A stretch of DNA of 22,935 nucleotides, from the IMG/VR virus record IMGVR_UViG_3300030101_004709, positions 1 to 22,935 of that record. One strand, 5' to 3'. The notes beneath the pieces were generated by a model. It was not told the origin of the DNA. It did no database searches and worked only from the letters and a program-made list of their open reading frames with translations. Positions 1 through 10,403 of the stretch are shown here, piece after piece (within the stretch, counting starts at the first letter, position 1; each line of letters starts with the position of its first letter). Source of the stretch: a virus. The translations under genes were made by a program, and so were the position numbers.

Positions 1-723
1 CTAAGAACTTCTTACGGCAGCACATCAGGTGGTGGTGGATCAGCAGAAGCATCTCTAAGCCTTGTTACAGGGTTAAGTTATACTATAATTGTTGGAGCAG
101 GCGGATCAAAAGGCTTTTCTGGTTCTGGTTCTGTAATTGCAAAAGGTTCTAATGGCGGAAATTCAACATTCCATACTGTTACCTCATTAGGCGGTGGTGG
201 TGGTGGCGGTGTCAATGGTAAAAACGGTGGTACAGGTGGAGGCGGGCAATATTATGCTTTAGGTGGAACAGGAACTACTGGACAAGGTTTTGCAGGCGGT
301 AATGGTGATCAAGCTAGCACACGTTGGGGCGGAGGCGGCGGAGGTGCTACTAGTGTTGGCGCAACTTCTGGAACTAGCGGTGGAGGAACTGCAGGCGGAA
401 CAGGATTAACTTCATCAATCAGAGGTTCTTCAGCTACTTATTCGACTGGCGGAAGAGGAGGTGGTAACACATTTCCTGGTGCGCAGGGAGATGCTACTGC
501 CAATACAGCAGACGGTGGACCTGGTTCATATCAAGGTCAAGGCGCAGGAAGTGGGGGTTCAGGTATAGTAATTTTAAGAACCTCTGTTGCTACTGCTACA
601 TTTAGCGCAGGAGTGACTTGCAATGGAACTGCAGGCGGAGGTACTATAAGTGGTCAAACAGCGGGTTCAGACTATGTATATCAAATAACAGCTGCAGGCG
701 CATCTGATACAGTAACATTTTAA
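1..723 (+). CDS. Glycine-rich tail fibre / adhesin, 3' part only
   Basis: Frame 1 is open from the window edge to TAA at 721-723, giving 240 residues with no start in view. The protein is dominated by runs of Gly with Ser, Thr and Ala (for example GGGGGGG near residue 65 and GGGGGGA near residue 113). It has the patterns YTIIVGAGG near residue 30 and GSGGSGIVILR near residue 190. These are typical of glycine-rich domains in phage fibre tips and adhesins, where poly-Gly segments can pack as a sandwich of type II helices, as in T2/S16 gp38; that structural analogy is inference. The last 45 residues form a small Ala/Thr/Gly-rich C-terminal segment. The next gene starts one base after this stop, so it heads a fibre gene cluster. 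Role: probably receptor recognition at a fibre tip. The fold class is fairly certain, the exact role is not. Confidence 0.7.
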   Translation, partial: LRTSYGSTSGGGGSAEASLSLVTGLSYTIIVGAGGSKGFSGSGSVIAKGSNGGNSTFHTVTSLGGGGGGGVNGKNGGTGGGGQYYALGGTGTTGQGFAGGNGDQASTRWGGGGGGATSVGATSGTSGGGTAGGTGLTSSIRGSSATYSTGGRGGGNTFPGAQGDATANTADGGPGSYQGQGAGSGGSGIVILRTSVATATFSAGVTCNGTAGGGTISGQTAGSDYVYQITAAGASDTVTF

Positions 724-724
724 T

Positions 725-1672
725 ATGGCACATTACGCAAACATATCAAACGCAGAATTTACAATAACAGAGAGAGCTCGGCTTCTTGAAGTTCAGCTAG
801 AAATAAGTTCTATTTGTGAGACTAATAGAGGAACTGAAGAATATAAAAATTTACAAGTATCTTCAGAAAGTAAATACACAAGCGACACATTAGAAAGACT
901 ACAATCCGAAGCTTTGAATCTTGAAACTTTTTCAGACGATTGGTTTGCAAAACAAGAAGAAATTCAAGCTGAAGAGGTAAACCTCGAAAAAGAAAGACTA
1001 GAGATACTTGATCAGATGAACGATTTAGAGAATAAAGACACAGAGGCTTTAGTATCTGAAAAAGAAACTTTGGAGACAACAATATCAAATGCTTTGTGCA
1101 GGGTCACCAATGTCATTGTTGGCAAGGATGAGATTTACTATATTGATGGTGATTCAAGCGAAATCGATGCAGAAATAAAAGCTTTAGAAGAAAGCAGAAA
1201 TGGTAAATCTAAAGAAGAGATTATAGCTATTGAGCAGGAGATACAAAATAAATTTGAGGAGAAAAAGAATATTCCCAAAATTGAGGTTGACAATACTGTT
1301 TATTTAGAAGCGGTCTATGGTGGTGCAAAAAGAACATCTTATAATAACAATATTAGAAAAAACTTTGCAGGTGTGGGTATGATATATGATCCTGTAAGAG
1401 ATGCTTTTTATGAAGAGCAACCTTATGAAAGTTGGACACTTGATGAAGACACCTGTGTGTGGCAACCCCCAACACCAAAGCTTGATGATAAATATTTTTG
1501 GAAAGATGATACAACCGAGTGGGTAGATTATGTATATTACAATCCCGACAAGAATCAACCATACCCGAGTTGGACGTGGAACACAGAAACAGGTATATGG
1601 GAACCACCTGTAGAAAAGCCTATAGGGCCTTTTTACAAGTGGGATGAGGAAACACAAACATGGATTATATAA
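725..1672 (+). CDS. Fibre-associated coiled-coil protein with W-rich C-terminal repeats
   Basis: A 315-residue protein starting at ATG 725, one base after the previous stop. It begins MAHYA, then has heptad-like, Glu/Lys/Leu-rich stretches (about 15-120 and 145-182) that predict coiled coil. Between them is a short segment RVTNVIVGKDEIYYID (126-140). From about 195 comes a conserved-looking segment (YGGAKRTSYNNNIRKNF, then AGVGMIYDPVRDAFY). Two W-rich units follow: PYESWTLDEDTCVWQPP (233-249) and PYPSWTWNTETGIWEPP (279-295), each followed by a K-W-D-x-x-T-x-x-W strand. The MAHYA start and the SWT...W.PP repeats recall a protein family common in marine phage genomes next to fibre genes (from memory, not searched). 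Its function is unknown. In this copy the coiled coil lies between the usual start and the conserved C-terminal part. Likely a virion fibre or fibre-accessory protein. Confidence 0.65.
   Translation: MAHYANISNAEFTITERARLLEVQLEISSICETNRGTEEYKNLQVSSESKYTSDTLERLQSEALNLETFSDDWFAKQEEIQAEEVNLEKERLEILDQMNDLENKDTEALVSEKETLETTISNALCRVTNVIVGKDEIYYIDGDSSEIDAEIKALEESRNGKSKEEIIAIEQEIQNKFEEKKNIPKIEVDNTVYLEAVYGGAKRTSYNNNIRKNFAGVGMIYDPVRDAFYEEQPYESWTLDEDTCVWQPPTPKLDDKYFWKDDTTEWVDYVYYNPDKNQPYPSWTWNTETGIWEPPVEKPIGPFYKWDEETQTWII
1421..1669 (+). repeat. Two tandem W-rich repeat units in the coding sequence
   Basis: Residues 233-278 and 279-315 of the coiled-coil fibre-associated protein align as two units. Each has PY-x-SWT, then a Thr-rich turn, W-x-PP, and a final W-[KD]-[DE]-x-T-x-x-W strand. 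The first unit is longer by an insert (residues 268-278). The similarity is clear in protein but not in DNA, so the duplication is old. Confidence 0.65.
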
Positions 1673-1675
1673 ATT

Positions 1676-2608
1676 ATGGCAACAACAAAAGTAATATCGG
1701 ACATAATAGATTTAAACAAGGCTAATACCACAAAGTCTCTAAAAATGCCATCGGGCACAGCTTTTTCAGGCACTCCTGTAGAGGGCATGCTTAGAAATGA
1801 TACAAGTCAGTCTAGTCAATCATCAGCTTCTACTATGCAGTTTTATAACGGTACAGCCTGGAAAAATTTTGCCAATTTAGGTAGCTGCACTACTAGCACT
1901 CTTAATTACCCTACAGGTGTTACTGGCACAGCGTTATATGAGTTTGACGGAAACGCAAACTCTACAAGTAGTTCTTCTTACGACGCTGCATCTACTGCAA
2001 ATTTAACATTTAACACAAGCATAAAAAGATATGGCACGTCATCCGCTTATTTTAATGGCTCAAACACTACAATAAATCTGCCCTTAACTTCATTTCATTT
2101 TAGTGCTTTTACTATTTCATGCTGGGTTTATCTTCCTACATATCCACCGAGTTCAGTATATGTAATTGCGAGCACTTATGATTACGGTCCTGGACCAAGC
2201 AAAGGTTGGCAACTTTACATCACAGGAGATGGTAAATTACAAGTAGATTTACATTCAGGTGATTGCGGCTCTCCATACCCTGTTGACCCTTCATGCACAG
2301 CTTATACTAGGATTACCTCTACTAATCTTATACCACAAAACACTTGGTCTCATTTAAGTTTGGTATGTGGAGGAACAGGCAATCCTGTAACTCTTTATAT
2401 TGATGCCAATCAAGAAGCAACTACAACTATGCAAGGATTAGCGTATCACGCAGGTGCTACACCAACTATAGGTTATAGAATTTACAGCGTTTCAGGAACA
2501 GTGTATCAAGAAGGTTATTTTGGTGGATATATAGACCAGTTTAGAGGTTACAATACAGCATTAACTGGCACACAAATACAGTCGTTACAAAATGAAGTAC
2601 CTTGTTAA
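1676..2608 (+). CDS. Tail fibre with LamG-like (concanavalin A-type) domain
   Basis: A 310-residue protein starting at ATG 1676 in the context AAATTATG, three bases after the previous stop. Residues 1-65 form an N-terminal module seen again in the next gene: a short MATTKV lead, then MPSGT, G-x-x-R-N-[DT] and YNGTAW. Residues about 75-308 look like a complete LamG / jelly-roll domain: an opening strand (TALYEFDG), AYFNGSNTTI (124-133), FTISCWVYLP (145-154), NTWSHLSLV, LYIDANQEAT, and the closing GGYIDQFRGYNTALTGTQI followed by a short tail. Such domains in phage fibres are generally carbohydrate-binding or trimer-forming; which applies here is not known. Cys residues at 71, 149, 197, 207, 231 and 310 are frequent for a phage fibre. 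It sits in the fibre cluster directly before a larger fibre with the same N-terminal module. Confidence 0.8.
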   Translation: MATTKVISDIIDLNKANTTKSLKMPSGTAFSGTPVEGMLRNDTSQSSQSSASTMQFYNGTAWKNFANLGSCTTSTLNYPTGVTGTALYEFDGNANSTSSSSYDAASTANLTFNTSIKRYGTSSAYFNGSNTTINLPLTSFHFSAFTISCWVYLPTYPPSSVYVIASTYDYGPGPSKGWQLYITGDGKLQVDLHSGDCGSPYPVDPSCTAYTRITSTNLIPQNTWSHLSLVCGGTGNPVTLYIDANQEATTTMQGLAYHAGATPTIGYRIYSVSGTVYQEGYFGGYIDQFRGYNTALTGTQIQSLQNEVPC

Positions 2609-2618
2609 AAAATAAATT

Positions 2619-5501
2619 ATGGCAATCACTAAAATTACAAAAACAGAATTATTAGAACTTACATCAACTACAGGTGCAGTAAGATTACCCAGCGGTACAA
2701 CAGCTGAAAGACCTTCTACTAATTTAAATGCTGGTGATTTTAGATACAATACAGACGATAATAAAGTTGAGTATTATGATGGCAGCAGTTGGTTTCAAAT
2801 AGATGATGAGAGTTTACCACCTGTTCCTAGTGAAAATTTTAATACGCTTTTATATTCAGGTAACGGAGGCACACAATCAATTACAGGGGCGGTATTTCAA
2901 CCAGATTTAGTTTGGGTTAAAAGGAGAAGCTCTTCAGAAGACCACGTGCTTTTCGATTCTGTACGTGGTGTGCAAGAACAATTAAGAAGTAATTCAGATG
3001 GTTCGCAAAGTACAAAAACAAATGCTTTAAGTTCTTTTGATTCAAGTGGTTTTACAACAGGTGCTAATAATGCACTGAACACAAATGGTCAAACCTATGT
3101 GGGATGGTGTTTTAAAGGAGGAGGAGCGCCTACTGCAACTAATTCAGCAGGAGCAGGTAACGTGCCAACAGCTGGTAGTGTAAAAATTGACGGAGCAGAT
3201 TCTAGCGCAGCGCTGTCAGGCTCTATAGCCGCCACTAAAATATCAGCTAATACAAAAACTGGATTTTCTATAATAACTTGGACAGGTACACAGGTTAATG
3301 ATTCTATAGACCACGGATTGAATGCAGCACCAAATCTACTTATTGTAAAAGACACTTCTAATAGTTATAATTGGTATGTATTTACAAAACCATCTGGAAC
3401 TTCAAATAATTTAAGAATTGAAGGCTTAAATACACAAAATGCTGCATCAACACAAAATTCACAATTTACAACAACAACCTCATTAATTGAAAATTTAACA
3501 ACCTTTGTTTCTCTTAATACATCTGGCGCAACTATGTTAATATATGCTTTTCACGATGTAGCGGGCTATCAAAAAATCGGAACATACACGGGCAATAATA
3601 CAGGAGGTCTTGAAAACCAAATAATACAAACGGGTTTTGAACCAGCGTGGTTATTAATAAGAAATATAACTTCTTCAAGTAATGATTGGATAATAGTAGA
3701 CAATAAAAGAAGTCTATCAAACCCAAGAAACCGAGTTTTAGAACCAAACAAAAATAATCCCGAAACAGAACAAACAGTTAATGTAAATTTTCTTACTAAT
3801 GGATTTGAACTTACAAATGGAAATAGTGATGTTAATGATAATGGTGATGTTTATCTATATTGGGCAATAGCTGCGGACCCAGACACCACAACACCAACTC
3901 TAGCAAACAGTTTCAAAACAAACTTATATACTGGTAACGGAAACACACAAACAATAGGCGGTCATTTGAGCGGGGCAGCACAGTTTAATGGCAGCAATAG
4001 CTTGATTGATATTACAGGGTTTTCCAATTTTGCTTCAACAGGAGTAAGTATATCTGCATGGATTAATGTAAAAAGTTTTAGTAGCGGACCCACTATTTTT
4101 AATTTATACAGTAATAACAGTATAGTTTTTGGAACTAATTCATCAGGTAAATTTTTTAGGTCAGGTCAAGGTACGACTGTTACCTCTGCTGCTACAATGT
4201 CCACAGGCACTTGGCATCATGTTGTAATGACAGCGAATACAAGTGGTTTTACAAACCTGTATTTGAATGGTTTCGGAGCTGGAAGTGGTGATTCAACAAC
4301 TGCAATGTATAATAGTAACAGTGATAAAGATTTAATTGGTGCTTATGGAACTAACAGCCAACCAATGGATGGTAGTATAGACCAAGTAAGAATTTATAAT
4401 TCTGTTTTAACCGCATCACAGGTTTCTGAATTGTATAATGAAACATCTTCTACCGCTAACACATTAGATTTTCCTACTGGCGCAGGATGTATTGCTGCAT
4501 ATCCTCTTAATACAAACTCAAACGATTTGAGTGGAAACTATAATGGAACAGATTCAAATATAACTTACAGTGATGGACCTGGATTTAAACCAACCTTTAT
4601 TTGGATGAAAGCTAGGGAGGCGACAACCTCACAAGCATTACAAGATAGCGTTAGAGGTGTAAGTAAATTTTTAGCAAGTAATGGTGTAGACCCTCAATAT
4701 AGTTATCCAGGATATGGAGTGGTATCATATAACAATGACGGTTGGACATTAACAGATGTCGCTTCAGGTGGATATGGTATTAATGGAGCACCAGGTGGAA
4801 CATACGCTGGCTCTAATGCTTATTATGTCGGATGGGCCTGGAAAGGCGCAGTTAATCTTCCCACAATAAATACTGATGGAAGTATAACAAGTATAGTCAG
4901 CGCAAATCCAGCAAGTGGATTTAGCGTGGTAAAATATAAAGGAACAGGTTCAGCTGCTACAATTGGACATGGATTGGATGATGTACCTGAATTTATTATA
5001 GTAAAAAATATGAGTTCTTCCGCTAAATGGAGAGTCTATGTTTCAGCAATTGGTGCAACTAAATATTTAAATTTAAGCGATGATGATTCTGAGGGAACTG
5101 CTTCAACAATATGGAATGATACTACACCAACCGAAGATGTATTTAGCATTGGAAGTGATTCATCTGTGAGCGCAAACAATGATTTATTTGTTGCATATTG
5201 TTTCCACTCGGTGTCTGATTATTGTCAAGTGGGCTCGTATACAGGCAGCGGCAACCCAGGAAATGCACAAGATATAGGATTTCAGCCTGGGTTTATAATA
5301 TTTAAAAACACAGATGGACAAAATTCTTGGTGGATGTTTGATTCAGAAAGAGGTGATAATAGCAGGCTTTTTGCTGATTTACCTAACGGAGAATCTACAT
5401 CAAGCAGTTTAACAACAAATTCCACGGGCTTTTCTTTCAATGACGGAAACAGCAATTTAAATCAACTTAATCATGTTTACATTTATTTAGCAATAAAATA
5501 A
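2619..5501 (+). CDS. Large multidomain tail fibre: N-terminal module, two repeated domains, LamG insert
   Basis: A 960-residue protein starting at ATG 2619 (AAATTATG context). Residues 1-65 are the shared N-terminal module (LPSGTTAERP, FRYNTDDNKVEYYDGSSW), probably for attachment or trimer nucleation. Residues 73-418 are a first copy of a domain common in marine phage fibres (I recall DUF7483; not searched): LLYSGNGGTQSITG, QPDLVWVKRR, LFDSVRG, YVGWCFKGG, then DHGLNAAPNLLIVK and IGTYTGNN. A second copy runs from 431 to 960 (LYTGNGNTQTIGG, KPTFIWMKAR, QDSVRG, YVGWAWKG, GHGLDDVPEFIIVK, VGSYTGSG). That second copy is interrupted at residues about 450-650 by LamG-type sequence (ISAWINV, TWHHVVMT, LYLNG, GSIDQVRIYN). 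Likely a trimeric receptor-binding fibre. The domain pattern is clear, the ligand unknown. Confidence 0.8.
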   Translation: MAITKITKTELLELTSTTGAVRLPSGTTAERPSTNLNAGDFRYNTDDNKVEYYDGSSWFQIDDESLPPVPSENFNTLLYSGNGGTQSITGAVFQPDLVWVKRRSSSEDHVLFDSVRGVQEQLRSNSDGSQSTKTNALSSFDSSGFTTGANNALNTNGQTYVGWCFKGGGAPTATNSAGAGNVPTAGSVKIDGADSSAALSGSIAATKISANTKTGFSIITWTGTQVNDSIDHGLNAAPNLLIVKDTSNSYNWYVFTKPSGTSNNLRIEGLNTQNAASTQNSQFTTTTSLIENLTTFVSLNTSGATMLIYAFHDVAGYQKIGTYTGNNTGGLENQIIQTGFEPAWLLIRNITSSSNDWIIVDNKRSLSNPRNRVLEPNKNNPETEQTVNVNFLTNGFELTNGNSDVNDNGDVYLYWAIAADPDTTTPTLANSFKTNLYTGNGNTQTIGGHLSGAAQFNGSNSLIDITGFSNFASTGVSISAWINVKSFSSGPTIFNLYSNNSIVFGTNSSGKFFRSGQGTTVTSAATMSTGTWHHVVMTANTSGFTNLYLNGFGAGSGDSTTAMYNSNSDKDLIGAYGTNSQPMDGSIDQVRIYNSVLTASQVSELYNETSSTANTLDFPTGAGCIAAYPLNTNSNDLSGNYNGTDSNITYSDGPGFKPTFIWMKAREATTSQALQDSVRGVSKFLASNGVDPQYSYPGYGVVSYNNDGWTLTDVASGGYGINGAPGGTYAGSNAYYVGWAWKGAVNLPTINTDGSITSIVSANPASGFSVVKYKGTGSAATIGHGLDDVPEFIIVKNMSSSAKWRVYVSAIGATKYLNLSDDDSEGTASTIWNDTTPTEDVFSIGSDSSVSANNDLFVAYCFHSVSDYCQVGSYTGSGNPGNAQDIGFQPGFIIFKNTDGQNSWWMFDSERGDNSRLFADLPNGESTSSSLTTNSTGFSFNDGNSNLNQLNHVYIYLAIK
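2835..3872 (+). repeat. Fibre domain repeat, copy A (uninterrupted)
   Basis: Residues 73-418 of the 960-residue fibre. The landmarks in order are LYSGNG, VWVKRR, DSVRGV, YVGWCFKG, SIDHGLNAAPN, YAFHDVAGY, IGTYTGNN and VYLYWAIA. The same landmarks recur in copy B, so the two are related by an old duplication; DNA identity is too low to see as a direct repeat. Confidence 0.7.
3909..5498 (+). repeat. Fibre domain repeat, copy B, interrupted by LamG sequence
   Basis: Residues 431-449 (FKTNLYTGNGNTQTIGG) match the start of copy A (FNTLLYSGNGGTQSITG). The next matching segment, FKPTFIWMKAR, appears only at residue 656, after about 200 residues of LamG-type sequence (nucleotides about 3966-4568). 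The remainder (DSVRGV, YVGWAWKG, GHGLDDVPEF, YCFHSVSDY, VGSYTGSG, VYIYLAIK) follows copy A to the C-terminus. Confidence 0.7.
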
Positions 5502-5512
5502 AATCAAAAATT

Positions 5513-5812
5513 ATGAACACAACAATAATTATTTTAATCGGATTGGTATCATTACTAATCATTATCAACATAGCGTCAATATGGCTAACTAAAAAAGGTC
5601 TCACTAAAGATGAGAATAATAACATGATACCCGACATACTAGAGGAGAAATTTGCTCAAATGAAAAGCGATGTTTCCAAAAGAGTTGATCGAGTGGGTCA
5701 AGAAATAAAAGATGTGACAAAAGCCATCAAAGAGGTAGGTAATCAAATTGGTGATGTACCGAGTGCATTTAAAGGCAATAATAGGTCAGGGAAAAAACCA
5801 AAGAAAAAATGA
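5513..5812 (+). CDS. Small N-terminally membrane-anchored coiled-coil protein
   Basis: A 99-residue protein starting at ATG 5513 (AAAAATTATG context). Residues 3-25 are a strongly hydrophobic segment (IIILIGLVSLLIIINIASIW), followed by a positive KK pair, so it is probably a single membrane anchor with the rest cytoplasmic. Next comes an Asp/Asn-rich loop, TKDENNNMIPDILEEK (31-46), a calcium-loop-like pattern often seen after the anchor in small Bacteroidota membrane proteins. A charged helix that may form a coiled coil follows (47-80), and the tail is very basic (SGKKPKKK). It is the first gene of the lysis-like cassette, so an accessory lysis or membrane role is inferred. No named family can be assigned from the sequence alone. 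Confidence 0.6.
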   Translation: MNTTIIILIGLVSLLIIINIASIWLTKKGLTKDENNNMIPDILEEKFAQMKSDVSKRVDRVGQEIKDVTKAIKEVGNQIGDVPSAFKGNNRSGKKPKKK

Positions 5813-5883
5813 TCTATTACACTACGACCTCTGCAGGAGATATTAATTTTAAATATGTATTTATAGATGATAAATGTGAATGA
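5809..5883 (+). CDS. Possible 24-aa peptide coupled to both neighbours
   Basis: ATG 5809 overlaps the stop of the preceding gene as ATGA, and the frame ends at TGA 5881-5883, inside the next small gene (which starts at 5867). The peptide is MIYYTTTSAGDINFKYVFID followed by DKCE. The main support is position: it fills the only gap in an otherwise continuous chain of overlapping genes. It could equally be untranslated spacer. Low confidence. Confidence 0.25.
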   Translation: MIYYTTTSAGDINFKYVFIDDKCE

Positions 5884-6025
5884 TCTTAAAATATATAGCA
5901 TAAATTTTGTTGCTCTAATGACATCTTTGACGAACTTAGATGTTATTTTGAAAATTATTCTATCTCTTGTAGCTATCGGTTACACTATACATAAATGGTA
6001 CATCATGCATGGAAAAAATAAGTGA
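5867..6025 (+). CDS. 52-aa single-span membrane protein, lysis cassette
   Basis: ATG 5867 to TGA 6023-6025, with an in-frame stop (TAG) directly before the ATG, so the start is well bounded. The protein begins MINVNDLKIYSINFVALMTS. A hydrophobic segment, VILKIILSLVAIGYTI (about residues 28-43), is followed by HKWYIMHGKNK, a basic tail of the positive-inside type. It overlaps the peptidase gene by 17 bases. The pattern (about 25 residues, one membrane span ending in GYTI-x-KW, then a basic tail) resembles small proteins I recall in marine phage lysis regions; no family name is certain. A holin or pinholin-like or antiholin role is plausible from position next to the endolysin and a second membrane protein. 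Confidence 0.65.
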   Translation: MINVNDLKIYSINFVALMTSLTNLDVILKIILSLVAIGYTIHKWYIMHGKNK

Positions 6026-6470
6026 TCATATTTCGTATAAAGAAGCAACAAAATCTAACACAGCTTCAAGATTAGGCATAGATAATACACCAAATTCTTA
6101 TCATTTATCTAATATGTCTATTCTAGCTGATAGACTATTTGAACCTTTGAGAAAATGGGTTGGTGGTTCTATCAAAATAAATAGTTTTTTCAGATGTGAA
6201 GAGCTTAATCGTGCTATAGGCGGTAGCAGTCGCTCACAGCATTGTGAGGGCAGAGCTGTTGACATAGATGATACTTTTGGCAACAAATCAAATGCAGAGA
6301 TGTTCGCTTACATAAAAAATAATTTAGACTTCGATCAAATTATATGGGAATTTGGTGATGATTTGAATCCTGATTGGGTGCACATGAGTTATGTTTCCGA
6401 AAGCGAAAATAGATCACGTGCTCTTAGAGCAACAAGGGAAGATGGAAAGACTAAATATACTGTTATATGA
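6009..6470 (+). CDS. M15-type peptidase endolysin
   Basis: A 153-residue protein starting at ATG 6009, inside the end of the preceding small gene. It matches the short zinc peptidase M15 family (D-Ala-D-Ala carboxypeptidase type), which cuts peptidoglycan cross-bridge peptides. The visible motifs are INSFFRCEELNRAIGG (57-72), the zinc motif S-x-H-x-x-G-x-A-x-D as SQHCEGRAVD (76-85; ligands His78 and Asp85), IIWEFG (111-116; Glu114 a candidate catalytic residue) and DWVHMSY (122-128; third ligand His125). The length is normal for single-domain phage enzymes and there is no signal peptide, so release probably depends on a holin. It is followed directly, with an ATGA overlap, by a holin-like gene. 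Role: host cell-wall degradation at lysis. Confidence 0.88.
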   Translation: MEKISDHISYKEATKSNTASRLGIDNTPNSYHLSNMSILADRLFEPLRKWVGGSIKINSFFRCEELNRAIGGSSRSQHCEGRAVDIDDTFGNKSNAEMFAYIKNNLDFDQIIWEFGDDLNPDWVHMSYVSESENRSRALRATREDGKTKYTVI

Positions 6471-6964
6471 GTAAACCCAAAAAAAAGTTTGGGCAAACCA
6501 CAGTGGGTAAACTTTTAAAAGCATCTGTAGGTTTAATAAATCCCACACTAGGCAGTTTGATACAAGGCGATATGTCTGTAGAACAAGTCGTTTCTTCTAT
6601 TAAAAATTCAAATGCACCTGCAGAAGATAAGATACGTGCCCAAGAGATGGTTCTTGAAGCTTACGAGGCTGAGGTCGCTGACAGGGCATCAGCACGCCAA
6701 AGGGAAATGGCAGCTCTAGCGTCTGGGTCAAATGATATTCTTTTCAAAACAGTAGGATGGGGCATCACCATATGTTTTATTGGAGTAGTTGCAGGAGCTA
6801 TTGGGTTGTGGGAGATACCTAAAGAATCACAAAGACTTTTTGATATGGGCTTTGGTGCAGTAGTTGCTGCATTTACACAAGTTATAGGGTATTATTTTGG
6901 ATCATCGGCGGGTAGTAAACAAAAAACAAATATTTTAAATAATGGCGAAGGCAATAAATTATAA
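6467..6964 (+). CDS. Holin-like protein, two predicted membrane helices
   Basis: A 165-residue protein, with ATG 6467 overlapping the peptidase stop as ATGA. Residues 1-55 are a basic, amphipathic lead (KPKKKFG, LINPTLGSLIQG). Residues 56-85 form a charged helix with EAEVADRASARQREMAAL. Two hydrophobic segments follow: about 97-114 (GWGITICFIGVVAGAIGL) and about 127-146 (MGFGAVVAAFTQVIGYYFGS). The C-terminal tail is short and polar. The E-x-x-D-R-x-S-A-R-x-R-E helix followed by two or three spans is typical of the phage / gene-transfer-agent holin family described as holins of three transmembrane segments. Position after an endolysin supports that it permeabilises the inner membrane. Its last 23 bases overlap the next small gene. 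Confidence 0.75.
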   Translation: MSKPKKKFGQTTVGKLLKASVGLINPTLGSLIQGDMSVEQVVSSIKNSNAPAEDKIRAQEMVLEAYEAEVADRASARQREMAALASGSNDILFKTVGWGITICFIGVVAGAIGLWEIPKESQRLFDMGFGAVVAAFTQVIGYYFGSSAGSKQKTNILNNGEGNKL

Positions 6965-7079
6965 ATCCTACCAAAGCAAATCTAAAGTGCGTAGACCAGG
7001 TGTTCACGCTAAAACAAAAACATCAGCACTAAAGTCCTCAAAAAACTACCGAAAGACATACAAAGGACAAGGGCGATAA
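6942..7079 (+). CDS. 45-aa basic conserved-type phage protein
   Basis: ATG 6942 to TAA 7077-7079 encodes 45 residues that begin MAKAINYKSYQSKSKVRRPG and continue with VHAKTKTSALKSS and KNYRKTYKGQGR. Lys, Arg, Ser and Tyr dominate and there is no acidic residue, so it should bind nucleic acid or another acidic partner. The pattern K-S-K-x-R-R-P-G-x-H-x-K-x-K-[TS]-S-x-x-K-x-S-K-N-Y-x-K-x-Y-x-G-Q-G is one I recall as recurring in marine phage genomes near terminase genes, but its function is unknown to me. It overlaps the holin gene by 23 bases in another frame, and is followed by a possible promoter and the terminase operon. A ribosomal-protein-like or packaging-associated role would be guesswork. 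Confidence 0.7.
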   Translation: MAKAINYKSYQSKSKVRRPGVHAKTKTSALKSSKNYRKTYKGQGR

Positions 7080-7087
7080 AATATTTG
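7080..7087 (+). promoter_or_regulatory. Possible Bacteroidota-type -7 element (weak)
   Basis: AATATTTG differs from TAnnTTTG by one base and lies 29 bases before the ATG at 7117, similar to the spacing of the better element before the scaffold gene. No TTTG -33 element is seen. It would start the terminase-portal operon. Confidence 0.35.
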
Positions 7088-7107
7088 TATCTTAGGGGTA
7101 AATTTAA

Positions 7108-7118
7108 TTTAATCTAAT
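7108..7118 (+). promoter_or_regulatory. Leader motif TTTAATCTAAT at gene start, copy 1
   Basis: The 11-base motif runs into the ATG at 7117. The same 11 bases occur before the scaffold gene and the gene after the capsid gene. Probably a shared 5' leader or initiation element; function inferred from position only. Confidence 0.5.
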
Positions 7119-7341
7119 GGATATAAGAAAAATATCTGTAGGCTCAGATTATAAATCAGGAGCCATGCACTACATAGTAGGTCAAAAAATTCTTAATGGC
7201 GACTATAGCATTCATTTGATTCAGTACGACATCCAAAGTAATTCAATCAAGATATGGATCGAAAAAGATGAAGAAGTTTTGTTATGGAAAGAGTTTAATG
7301 CTAATATGCCCTTTTCTTTAGAATACAATATTAACTTTTGA
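7117..7341 (+). CDS. Hypothetical 74-aa protein, first gene of terminase operon
   Basis: ATG 7117 follows the leader motif TTTAATCTAAT, and TGA is at 7339-7341. The 74 residues begin MDIRKISVGSDYKSGAMHYI and alternate hydrophobic and polar positions (YSIHLIQYDI, SIKIWIEKDEEVLLWKEF), suggesting a small all-beta protein. No signal peptide or membrane segment is seen and I recognise no family. It overlaps the next gene by one base (TGATG), so the two are probably translationally coupled. As the head of the operon with the GroES-like protein and both terminase candidates, it may act in head assembly or packaging, but that is only guilt by association. Confidence 0.65.
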   Translation: MDIRKISVGSDYKSGAMHYIVGQKILNGDYSIHLIQYDIQSNSIKIWIEKDEEVLLWKEFNANMPFSLEYNINF

Positions 7342-7904
7342 TGAAATCACCATACACATTTATTGTTGAACCATTAGATAATAAAAGATACGTCAACATT
7401 AAAAATATAAATGGTGTTGATTTGGTAATAAATACAAGTCAAGAGAATCATCTAGCTTCAAATAGAGAAGCAGTAGTTTTATCAACTCCAATCAAATACA
7501 CAGGGCCTATTTCTAAAGGTGATATATTATTAGTACATCACAATGTATTCAAATTTTATTACGATATTAAAGGGAGGCAAAAAAGTTGTAAAAGTTATTT
7601 TCGAGATAATTTGTTTTTTGTTGATAATGAACAATTTTTTATGTATAAACAAAACGGTGAATGGCATAGTCATGATAGATATTGTTTTGTAGAACCTGTA
7701 AAAACCAAACAATCTATTATATACAAAAACACAAAAGAAGAACCCTTGGTTGCAAAAATGGTATATACAAACAATACACTTAAAAAACAAGGTGTAATTA
7801 AAGATAGCATAGTATCCTTCAAACCTGAAAGCGAATACCCATTTCTTGTTGATAATAGAAAATTATATCGTATGTATGATCATCAAATAACCTTACTTCT
7901 ATGA
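7341..7904 (+). CDS. GroES-like (Cpn10-fold) two-domain protein, putative co-chaperonin
   Basis: A 187-residue protein. I choose ATG 7341, which overlaps the upstream stop by one base, over a TTG one codon earlier. Residues about 40-75 read REAVVLSTPIKYTGPISKGD then ILLVHHNVFKFYYD, which fits the strand - glycine - KGD - hydrophobic strand pattern of co-chaperonin barrels. After a loop (76-90) comes LFFVDNEQFFMY and then YCFVEPV (114-120). A second half, residues 134-187, has EPLVAKMVY, GVIKDSIVSFKPESEYPFLV, DNRKLYRM and DHQITLLL, closely paralleling the C-terminal half of GroES (KVGD-x-V-x-F..., dG-x-x-Y-x-[IL]-[RL]-x-x-[DE]-I-x-A-x-[IV]). So it may be two fused Cpn10-like barrels. T4 gp31 is the precedent for a phage co-chaperonin acting in capsid protein folding. 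No obvious GroEL-binding mobile loop is identifiable, so chaperonin binding is unproven. Confidence 0.5.
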   Translation: MKSPYTFIVEPLDNKRYVNIKNINGVDLVINTSQENHLASNREAVVLSTPIKYTGPISKGDILLVHHNVFKFYYDIKGRQKSCKSYFRDNLFFVDNEQFFMYKQNGEWHSHDRYCFVEPVKTKQSIIYKNTKEEPLVAKMVYTNNTLKKQGVIKDSIVSFKPESEYPFLVDNRKLYRMYDHQITLLL

Positions 7905-8179
7905 AATCAGAAATGTTAAAACTGCAAATAATAAATGCAGGCAGAAAAGCTGTTGAACAACTAATTAAAGTTGCAAAAGAAGATATCATAAAACCTGATC
8001 CTGAGGATGAACTTGCGGCTGATAGACTTAAAAACGCAGCAGCCACAAAAAAACTAGCTATATTTGATGCATTTGATATATTATCTAAAATAGATCAAGA
8101 AGAACAAGAACTAAACCAAGAGGAAAAAAATATTAATGTAAATACAAAACAAGGTTTTGCAGAGCGAAGATCTAAATAA
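7901..8179 (+). CDS. Candidate small terminase subunit (helical, acidic)
   Basis: A 92-residue protein, with ATG 7901 overlapping the previous stop as ATGA. It is nearly all helical by composition: residues 4-25 (EMLKLQIINAGRKAVEQLIKVA), then DIIKPDPEDELAADRLKNAA (28-47), TKKLAIFDAFDILSKIDQEE (49-68) and a polar tail. There is no recognisable helix-turn-helix. The position directly before the large terminase and the small helical make-up fit a terminase small subunit, but they fit a packaging accessory protein just as well. It overlaps the large terminase frame by 23 bases, so the pair is probably translationally coupled. Confidence 0.45.
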   Translation: MKSEMLKLQIINAGRKAVEQLIKVAKEDIIKPDPEDELAADRLKNAAATKKLAIFDAFDILSKIDQEEQELNQEEKNINVNTKQGFAERRSK

Positions 8180-10403
8180 ATTATATCAAAAGTTAGTAGG
8201 TTATATACCAACCGCAATCATAAAAAGAAAAAACAAAGCACGTACTTGGCTTTATGGGTATAATATTAAATATGATATTGTTATAATCTCAAAGGACGGC
8301 ACATTAGGCGATATCATAAATATTAATGGATTAGTTATAGGACTGCCTTCTATACCGGATAACGTGTATAGTAGATCTAAAAGTAAAAAAGAACAATATT
8401 GGCAACGACAACCTCTAGATAAAAGTTTAAATAAAATTCAATCTATATTTCAATGGAATGAAATGTCCTCATCATTTAAAAACCGTTGGATTGATTATAT
8501 TGAAAAAGAATTTGATAAAAGAGAAGAAGGGCATTGGTTTTACAATAATGGGACACCAACTTATATTAGCGGCTCACATTACATGTATTTACAATGGACT
8601 AGTATAGATGTAGGATACCCTGATTTTAGAGAAGCAAATAGAATCTTTTTTTTATTTTGGGAGGCATGTAAAGCTGACAATCGATGCTTTGGTTTAGATT
8701 ATCTTAAAATAAGACGCTCAGGGTTCTCGTATATGGGTTCATCAGAATGCATTAACACAGGAACTTTGGCAAAAGATTCTAGGGTTGGTATTTTATCGAA
8801 AACGGGAGCAGATGCAAAAAAAATGTTTACTGATAAAGTTGTTCCGATTGCAAACAGATTACCTTTTTTCTTCAAGCCTATACAAGATGGTATGGATAAA
8901 CCCAAAACAGAATTAGCTTTTCGTGTTCCTGCATCTAAAATAACTAAAAAAAATATGTATGACGTAGTTGATGATGAGTTGTATGGATTAGACACCACAG
9001 TTGATTGGAAAAATACAGATGAAAACTCATATGACGGAGAAAAACTATTATTGCTAGTACATGATGAAAGTGGTAAGTGGATTAAGCCCAATAATATTTT
9101 AAACAATTGGAGGGTAACTAAAACGTGTTTACGTTTGGGGAGTAAAATTATAGGTAAATGCATGATGGGCTCTACATCAAATGCTCTCAGCAAAGGCGGA
9201 GAAAATTTTAAAAAACTATATGAAGATTCAAACATATCTACACGTAATGCTAACGGTCAAACAAAAAGCGGCATGTATTCTCTTTTCATTCCCATGGAAT
9301 GGAATATGGAGGGTTTCATTGATAAGTATGGCATGCCTGTGTTTCATACACCTTTAAATCCTATACTTGGCGTGGATGATGAATACATATATAATGGAGC
9401 TATAGATTATTGGGAAGCTGAAGTTGAGTCTTTAAAAAAAGATCCAGATGCTCTTAATGAGTTTTACAGACAGTTTCCTCGAACCGAAAGTCATGCGTTT
9501 CGTGACGAGAGTAAAGGAAGTTTATTCAACCTTACAAAGATATATCAACAGATTGATTTTAATGATTCTTTGATTATGCCACAGCATGTTACGAGAGGTA
9601 AATTTTATTGGAAAGACGGCATCAAGGATACCGAGGTCATATGGACACCAGATTCAAACGGAAGGTTTCAAGTATCATGGACGCCAAACAAACAATTAAC
9701 TAACAAACCATCAAGCAGAAACGGTACTTACTACCCAAATAATGAGCATATTGGCGCTTTTGGGTGTGATAGCTATGATATATCAGGAACCGTAGGTGGA
9801 AGAGGTTCGAATGGCGCATTGCATGGGCTGACTAAATTTAATATGGATCAAGCCCCTAGCAATGAGTTTTTCTTGGAATATGTAGCAAGACCACAAACAG
9901 CAGAAATATTTTTTGAGGAGGTTTTAATGGCTTGTGTTTTTTATAGTATGCCTATTCTCGTAGAAAACAATAAACCACGTTTGCTGTATCATTTCAAAAA
10001 CAGAGGCTACCGAGGTTTTTGCATGAATCGCCCTGACAGACATTTTAACAAACTTTCAAAAACAGAAAAGGAGATAGGTGGTATACCTAATTCATCTGAA
10101 GATGTAAAGCAATCACATGCTGCTGCGATAGAATCATACATAGAAAAGTATATTGGTATTGATTTAGAGGGAACTTATAGAGATCAGACTACGATTGGGT
10201 CTATGCTTTTTAATAGAACACTAGAAGAATGGGCAAGGTTCGATATTAATAATAGGACACAGTTTGATGCCACTATAAGCTCGGGTCTTGCAATAATGGC
10301 GAATCAAAAATCGTTATATTTACCTATCCAAAAACAATCAAAAATAAGTCTTAACTTTGCAAGATATAGCAACAGTGGAAATTTTAGTGAATTAGTTAAA
10401 TGA
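8157..10403 (+). CDS. terL: Terminase large subunit (packaging ATPase-nuclease)
   Basis: The frame gives 748 residues from TTG 8157. No ATG occurs until residue 103, well inside conserved-looking sequence, so a non-ATG start near 8157 is likely. The ATPase half has a deviant Walker A, K-I-R-R-S-G-F-S (184-191), with the lysine at the start of the loop as in lambda gpA (KSARVGYSK). Walker B is LLLLVHDE (297-304; Asp303, Glu304), and the coupling motif is GSTSN (338-342). The C-terminal RNase H-like nuclease half shows FGCDSYD (536-542; Asp538), ILVENN (600-605; Glu603) and FDATISSGLA (703-712; Asp704), the usual acidic triad. It packages DNA into the procapsid through the portal, whose gene follows with an ATGA overlap. 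The length, about 750 residues, is on the long side for terminases. Confidence 0.88.
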   Translation: MQSEDLNKLYQKLVGYIPTAIIKRKNKARTWLYGYNIKYDIVIISKDGTLGDIININGLVIGLPSIPDNVYSRSKSKKEQYWQRQPLDKSLNKIQSIFQWNEMSSSFKNRWIDYIEKEFDKREEGHWFYNNGTPTYISGSHYMYLQWTSIDVGYPDFREANRIFFLFWEACKADNRCFGLDYLKIRRSGFSYMGSSECINTGTLAKDSRVGILSKTGADAKKMFTDKVVPIANRLPFFFKPIQDGMDKPKTELAFRVPASKITKKNMYDVVDDELYGLDTTVDWKNTDENSYDGEKLLLLVHDESGKWIKPNNILNNWRVTKTCLRLGSKIIGKCMMGSTSNALSKGGENFKKLYEDSNISTRNANGQTKSGMYSLFIPMEWNMEGFIDKYGMPVFHTPLNPILGVDDEYIYNGAIDYWEAEVESLKKDPDALNEFYRQFPRTESHAFRDESKGSLFNLTKIYQQIDFNDSLIMPQHVTRGKFYWKDGIKDTEVIWTPDSNGRFQVSWTPNKQLTNKPSSRNGTYYPNNEHIGAFGCDSYDISGTVGGRGSNGALHGLTKFNMDQAPSNEFFLEYVARPQTAEIFFEEVLMACVFYSMPILVENNKPRLLYHFKNRGYRGFCMNRPDRHFNKLSKTEKEIGGIPNSSEDVKQSHAAAIESYIEKYIGIDLEGTYRDQTTIGSMLFNRTLEEWARFDINNRTQFDATISSGLAIMANQKSLYLPIQKQSKISLNFARYSNSGNFSELVK

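Follow-up and report, generated by a model that had tools for sequence, protein, structure and literature searches.

Sugar binding is frequent among LamG and pentraxin folds, and the hypervariable segments of the T-even type adhesin gp38 recombine. Domain insertion as such is common, being found in 20% of multidomain proteins (PMC13114784). Among phages, the evolved Dit of lactococcal phages is a tail protein that carries one or two carbohydrate-binding modules in its interior and still aligns at both ends with its uninterrupted counterpart; insertion of these modules changed phage adsorption (PMC10688798). The fibre gene that we describe here is alike in that plan. It differs in its host domain, which is DUF7483 rather than Dit (no family of the latter name occurs among our Pfam or PHROG matches), and in the permutation of its LamG insert, a trait not among the features described in the available part of that paper; moreover, the Dit insert was assayed for adsorption (PMC10688798), whereas the fibre LamG is known here from sequence and prediction. 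The gp38 adhesin likewise alternates conserved motifs with hypervariable segments but has an unrelated polyglycine fold (PMC6851490).

Since domain insertion as such is common, the kind of arrangement is already known, as are carbohydrate modules inside phage tail proteins; this nested, permuted form is new as far as the literature that we searched, in which we found no paper on DUF7483 by that name, nothing on LamG domain insertion in a phage tail fiber, and nothing on receptor-binding modularity of this sort. The window that we analyzed is a 22,935-nucleotide metagenomic viral contig, and its fibre gene comes from a marine phage. The LamG domain of this gene is most likely nested and permuted; related uncultivated phages show the arrangement repeatedly, together with signs that cassettes have been exchanged.

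A DUF7483 domain split by LamG

The fibre gene (2619 to 5501, plus strand, like its parts and the neighboring LamG gene described below) encodes 960 residues: DUF7483 copy A, then a split copy B with LamG inside. Genes near it encode LamG, glycine-rich, and endolysin proteins; the endolysin (phrog_894, 6009 to 6470) lies beside the fibre genes. The host is likely a member of the Bacteroidota, because TerL relatives in 91 phage records fall mostly in phages of Flavobacterium (n = 68) and Cellulophaga (n = 15); the best match is to an uncultured phage.

DUF7483 (PF24299) matched the protein in three stretches (E 9.3e-148; 492.1 bits, gathering score 27 bits), and by Pfam score both copies are members of the family, copy B differing in its split by LamG. 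The domain consists of three repeats of ∼100 residues each (HH probabilities 98.5 to 99.2%), the first of which contains the LamG slot. Copy A (residues 73 to 417; 2835 to 3869; Pfam, BLAST) is unbroken, as a preliminary description had noted: LLYSGNGGTQSITG (residues 77 to 90) is adjacent to QPDLVWVKRR (residues 94 to 103). The matching strands of copy B, LYTGNGNTQTIGG (residues 436 to 448; 3924 to 3962) and KPTFIWMKAR (residues 657 to 666; 4587 to 4616), had been described as lying about 200 residues apart with LamG between them; the gap is 208 residues and is mostly LamG, with Laminin_G_3 (PF13385) matching residues 458 to 603 (3990 to 4427; E 1e-23; 84.6 bits, gathering score 27.6). Pfam and BLAST also bear out the location of LamG between the first and second strands of copy B. 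The span proposed for it, 3909 to 4577, is correct as coordinates (residues 431 to 653), but comprises the first strand plus the insert; the insert alone is 3963 to 4577 (residues 449 to 653), as delimited by Pfam, the second model described below, and structure matches.

Overall, the two copies are identical at 110 of 361 columns (30%; BLAST E 9e-44). The first strand segment of copy B (residues 431 to 448; 3909 to 3962), called S1 here, was assigned by BLAST and HMM: it separately matches the first strand of copy A (11 of 18 residues, E 0.001 in a two-sequence comparison), and an HMM made from DUF7483 domains of ORFs without LamG scored residues 401 to 448 at 26.7 bits, whereas of 1000 shuffles, 994 of which received a score, none exceeded 20.1 bits. 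By this score, the first strand of DUF7483 is present in copy B.

Permuted order and predicted structure of the insert

The neighboring protein (1676 to 2608; sequence, Pfam) provides a contrast within the genome. In its LamG, the leader (TALYEFDGNAN onward) precedes the AYFNGS core, whereas the inserted LamG begins with the core (HLSGAAQFNG onward) and has the leader (CIAAYPLNTNSNDLSGNYNGTDSNITYSDG) at its end. This leader (residues 610 to 653; 4446 to 4577), delimited with a leader HMM and modelled strands, is composed of a linker, strand b1 (CIAAY, residues 624 to 628), and strand b2 (YNGTDSNITYSDG, residues 641 to 653). Compared with the adjacent gene's ordinary LamG, the insert is circularly permuted: its own leader, b1 included, follows the core instead of preceding it, a position that is not part of the Pfam cutoff for Laminin_G_3. 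Scored both ways, the segment before the LamG core (401 to 448) reached only 3.6 bits as LamG leader against its 26.7 bits as first strand, and the segment before the DUF7483 core (606 to 653) reached 37.0 bits with the leader HMM but −3.1 with that of the first strand. Both HMMs derive from other sequences; the leader HMM was trained on 13 rows, one of which is the window's own neighboring protein and another (L135) no real leader.

The insert shares its fold with Laminin_G_3 and pentraxins and aligns in order with pentraxin domains: the predicted model matched PTX3 (8s50; Z 22.6, 187 aligned) and SAP (1sac; Z 19.7, 184 aligned) in fold and strand order, although its 17.9 bits in Pfam fall below the gathering score of 25 bits for Pentraxin (PF00354).

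We modelled the split copy with AlphaFold2 from two alignments; a full-length alignment was not used for folding, since it put near-invariant first-strand columns (F12, Y17) on copy A and core columns on copy B. The first model (49 rows, including 9 nested relatives) left S1 (425 to 451) and residues 611 to 651 at pLDDT <50, with pTM 0.62; its top LamG matches had Z of about 18 with 158 to 165 residues aligned. For the second, we used 53 rows, comprising 29 nested sequences (window included) and 24 trimmed to the start of the second strand, which prevented uninterrupted rows from biasing the placement of S1; in two-LamG rows, the leader to align was picked by MAFFT. The second model (pLDDT 88.1, pTM 0.82) has strands at 432 to 438 (S1), 624 to 628 (b1), 649 to 652 (b2), and 660 to 665 (second strand). 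The two leader strands are short and of moderate confidence (block pLDDT 52 to 83), and the remainder of copy B from the second strand on (residues 654 to 959; 4578 to 5495; Pfam, BLAST) is mostly at 90 or more (lowest 58).

The best LamG matches of the second model span about model residues 26 to 229, that is, residues 450 to 653 (Z 22.0 to 23.3, 181 to 191 aligned, rmsd 2.0 to 2.4 Å), a prediction that supports the limits of the LamG domain. The S1 strand (model residues 8 to 14) lies outside the LamG match in all 50 matches listed, each of which starts at model residue 20 or later; 36 of the 50 take in the leader (ending at 227 or beyond), and the other 14, which are AbnA, sialidase, and CBM40 domains, cover the core alone and end at 183 to 185. 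In PDB structure comparisons of both models the matches listed were filled by LamG, hence none was for the DUF7483 fold; by sequence, PDB yielded one match, an arabinanase LamG. The 536-residue model also matches a 557-residue viral predicted structure (TM 0.80/0.78); Foldseek rows aligning both domains at rmsd 13 to 26 Å were excluded.

These comparisons bear on an alternative without nesting, in which S1 would serve LamG as its leader strand and b2 would serve DUF7483 as its first strand, leaving the two domains consecutive. This strand exchange appears improbable to us, though several observations speak for it: b2 resembles S1, and BLAST aligns b2 at the S1 position of copy A; DUF7483 HMM matches extend over b2-type strands; a lone b2-type strand precedes DUF7483 in two relatives (L029 and L039); and, with low-confidence residues kept, the LamG match of the first model starts at model residue 1 or 2 in 6 of 50 VIA rows listed, which, if trusted, would put the N-terminal residues in LamG. 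We counted those 6 rows, which would be consistent with S1 lying in LamG, against nesting, together with the low pLDDT of S1 and of residues 611 to 651 in the first model, the moderate confidence of the leader in the second, the 14 matches without it, and the likeness of b2 to S1. The second model, however, favors nesting over strand exchange, because none of its listed LamG matches reaches 432 to 438 and 36 of 50 include b1 and b2. Domain nesting as originally proposed is thus favored by this model and by the survey below; that the insert is a permuted LamG departs from the original proposal, whose terms carbohydrate-type and receptor-binding are putative. That proposal also lacked three features described below: the recurrence among relatives, slots with two LamG cores, and a variable interior between conserved ends.

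Nested units and their variants among relatives

Relatives were gathered from five scans of viral contigs (the best 80 loci each in two of them), 12 annotated-phage regions, and the window protein. All figures are among the loci listed (numbered with L); they are not prevalences, because nested and DUF7483 sequences served as queries in collecting the loci, nor independent events, because relatives share ancestry. Sequences were thinned by shared 3-mers, as some loci are the same contig fetched twice; L003, L022, L023, and L119, which duplicate other contigs or are nearly the window, were left out.

HMM classing of 82 LamG-array-plus-DUF7483 units, 62 of them non-redundant, showed that 45 of the 62 have S1 ahead of the first LamG and a LamG leader directly ahead of DUF7483; the reverse, ordinary order (leader first, S1 last) was found in 14, and the remaining 3 start at a contig end (leader-leader in L035 and L037; too short to class in L190). 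Every informative unit has one first strand per DUF7483 core, on either side of LamG. Strand exchange should also yield S1-LamG-S1-DUF7483, yet no unit among these 62 has S1 twice; it should likewise yield leader-LamG-leader-DUF7483, which is limited to the two units that start at a contig end.

Viewed from the LamG side, 76 cores among the loci listed have S1 before them, and 65 of these are followed by a DUF7483 core within their ORF: 62 such DUF7483 cores lack their own S1 by regex, and the other 3 carry b2-type strands by eye. For the other 11 LamG cores, 10 ORFs run past the available sequence and 1 (L027) ends at a stop; in this locus (1196 to 4403), the nested gene seems split into two frames between LamG array and DUF7483, a break that may be a frameshift or a sequencing error. 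Regex classing of the 252 DUF7483 cores whose start was usable, again among the loci listed, found 59 without their own first strand after a LamG array that starts with one (58 sources, window included) and 149 that carry the first strand directly (3 being regex errors on b2-type strands). Most of the other 44 show a first-strand variant by eye, and the rest are b2-type, cut, or without a first strand (L059). Thinning left 43 nested sequences besides the window, in which one LamG (11 sequences) or two (32 sequences) were detected; the slot in relatives thus holds one or two LamG cores. Uninterrupted homologues, for which the preliminary description had suggested looking, exist as well: 101 DUF7483 cores in ORFs without LamG match, among the loci listed.

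The same part order in the 43 non-redundant sequences from other loci, the junctions shared by independent contigs, and the presence of the same gene on a separate contig (L003) make an assembly chimaera, conceivable for a metagenomic viral contig, extremely improbable. Of 50,697 annotated-phage records, 20 matched S1 plus insert of the window as query, some from query residue 3 to 13; in S-H9-2 (L018), the one record read of these, no S1 was seen by eye. With the nested relative L127 as query, 4 annotated-phage records matched, all starting after S1. Neither S-H9-2 nor the 4 matches to L127 thus provided an isolate that has the nested form.

Other arrangements were seen among the relatives. 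An ordinary-order LamG lies between DUF7483 repeats 1 and 2 in eight loci (L106, L107, L062, L041, L073, L037, L140, and L188), and this gap, judged from domain order, is a second insertion site. A permuted LamG lies just past the end of repeat 1 (YVAWNWK) in L151, L176, L135, and L198, the last a contig from a Flammeovirgaceae MAG; the order of matches in L152 and L153 is the same as in L151. In L004 (1 to 1941), a contig that begins within the LamG core, a SPRY domain (Pfam E 6e-13) lies between LamG b1 and b2, before DUF7483, and by the same kind of reading constitutes a second level of nesting. L029 and L039 have two LamG cores but one full leader, and DUF7483 is preceded there by a b2-type strand alone, perhaps reflecting a LamG within the leader of another LamG; simple nesting explains them only with a second insertion, which counts against the explanation that we prefer.

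Conserved joints and exchange of LamG interiors

Compared with L051, the window protein is 80% identical over linker and S1, 34% over the LamG core, 100% at the LamG end, 81% over the linker with b1, 54% over b2, and 44% and 40% over the DUF7483 cores. Across 29 nested rows, S1 distances show their strongest correlations with segments past LamG, namely the linker and b1 (r 0.72) and b2 (r 0.64), versus r 0.39 for the DUF7483 core and r 0.13 for the LamG core. This pattern bears on the idea that residues 431 to 448 are recombination debris, the stump of a third DUF7483 copy, with LamG a mere linker domain between copies. Modules are indeed shuffled in these phages; however, S1 occurs once per DUF7483 core in units not cut by a contig end (L027 aside, among the loci listed), its distances track those of the segment past LamG, and S1 with its linker is far better conserved toward L051 than the LamG core, all of which makes debris quite unlikely.

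In 4 of 406 pairs, similarity in the LamG core exceeds that in S1 and that in DUF7483 by >0.2. In the clearest, L124/L127, 95% of core nucleotides are shared versus 54 to 60% elsewhere, the identity starting at FNGSSS and stopping at DQVRIFN; L164/L161 is the converse, with joints at 88 to 94%, core at 46%, and DUF7483 at 56%. The window and its sister phage L121 are 96.6% identical over 5492 to 9000 and 87.8% over 668 to 3127. From 3128 to 5491, just three short pieces align; two of these are the joints, upstream (3864 to 3993, 80% of nucleotides, with no alignment of the sequence either side) and downstream (4371 to 4610, 76%). On a larger scale, 1925 to 5224 of the window, largely both fibre genes, is 98 to 100% identical to L003 per 150-base block, while upstream blocks are at 75 to 91% and downstream pieces at 71 to 75%; because of this difference, we interpret the shared stretch as a recent transfer.

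At the level of sequence, then, the split, the permuted order, the conserved joints, and exchange in a few pairs are evident. We think it probable that the copy B hairpin was opened for a permuted LamG, with slot ends conserved and interiors exchanged between phages. Copy B would be one domain whose first hairpin (strands 1 and 2 of the first internal repeat) opened to admit LamG; a slot with neighboring ends would require LamG to be circularly permuted to fit, with b1 and b2 following the core rather than preceding it, which would give the pentraxin strand order. The DUF7483 scaffold would hold the jelly roll outward from one loop, and recombination between phages would replace the LamG interior (FNGSSS to DQVRIFN in two pairs read base by base) while the slot ends are kept, presumably changing the surface ligand bound by the fibre. 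We infer the pairing of S1 with DUF7483, the display of LamG, its binding of a ligand, and a receptor role, the fibre binding a receptor or a glycan or other sugar.

Relatives thus appear to swap the middle of LamG between conserved ends, a plausible way to alter what the phage sticks to. More tentatively, and as an idea that we rate slightly below even, DUF7483 may be a scaffold for natural display that has a slot of its own for this purpose. The conserved joints would let LamG interiors pass between different phage backbones, and would allow a second LamG to be stacked or another domain (SPRY in L004) to be put inside the leader of the first: nested dolls evolving host recognition with the scaffold untouched. 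The fibre gene offers a natural, recurring case in which permutation of an inserted domain brings its ends together. Because relatives have no insert, one, or two, rules for insertion sites and for the exchange of phage binding domains become directly testable, and lectin-like domains could be placed on DUF7483 as a ready scaffold.
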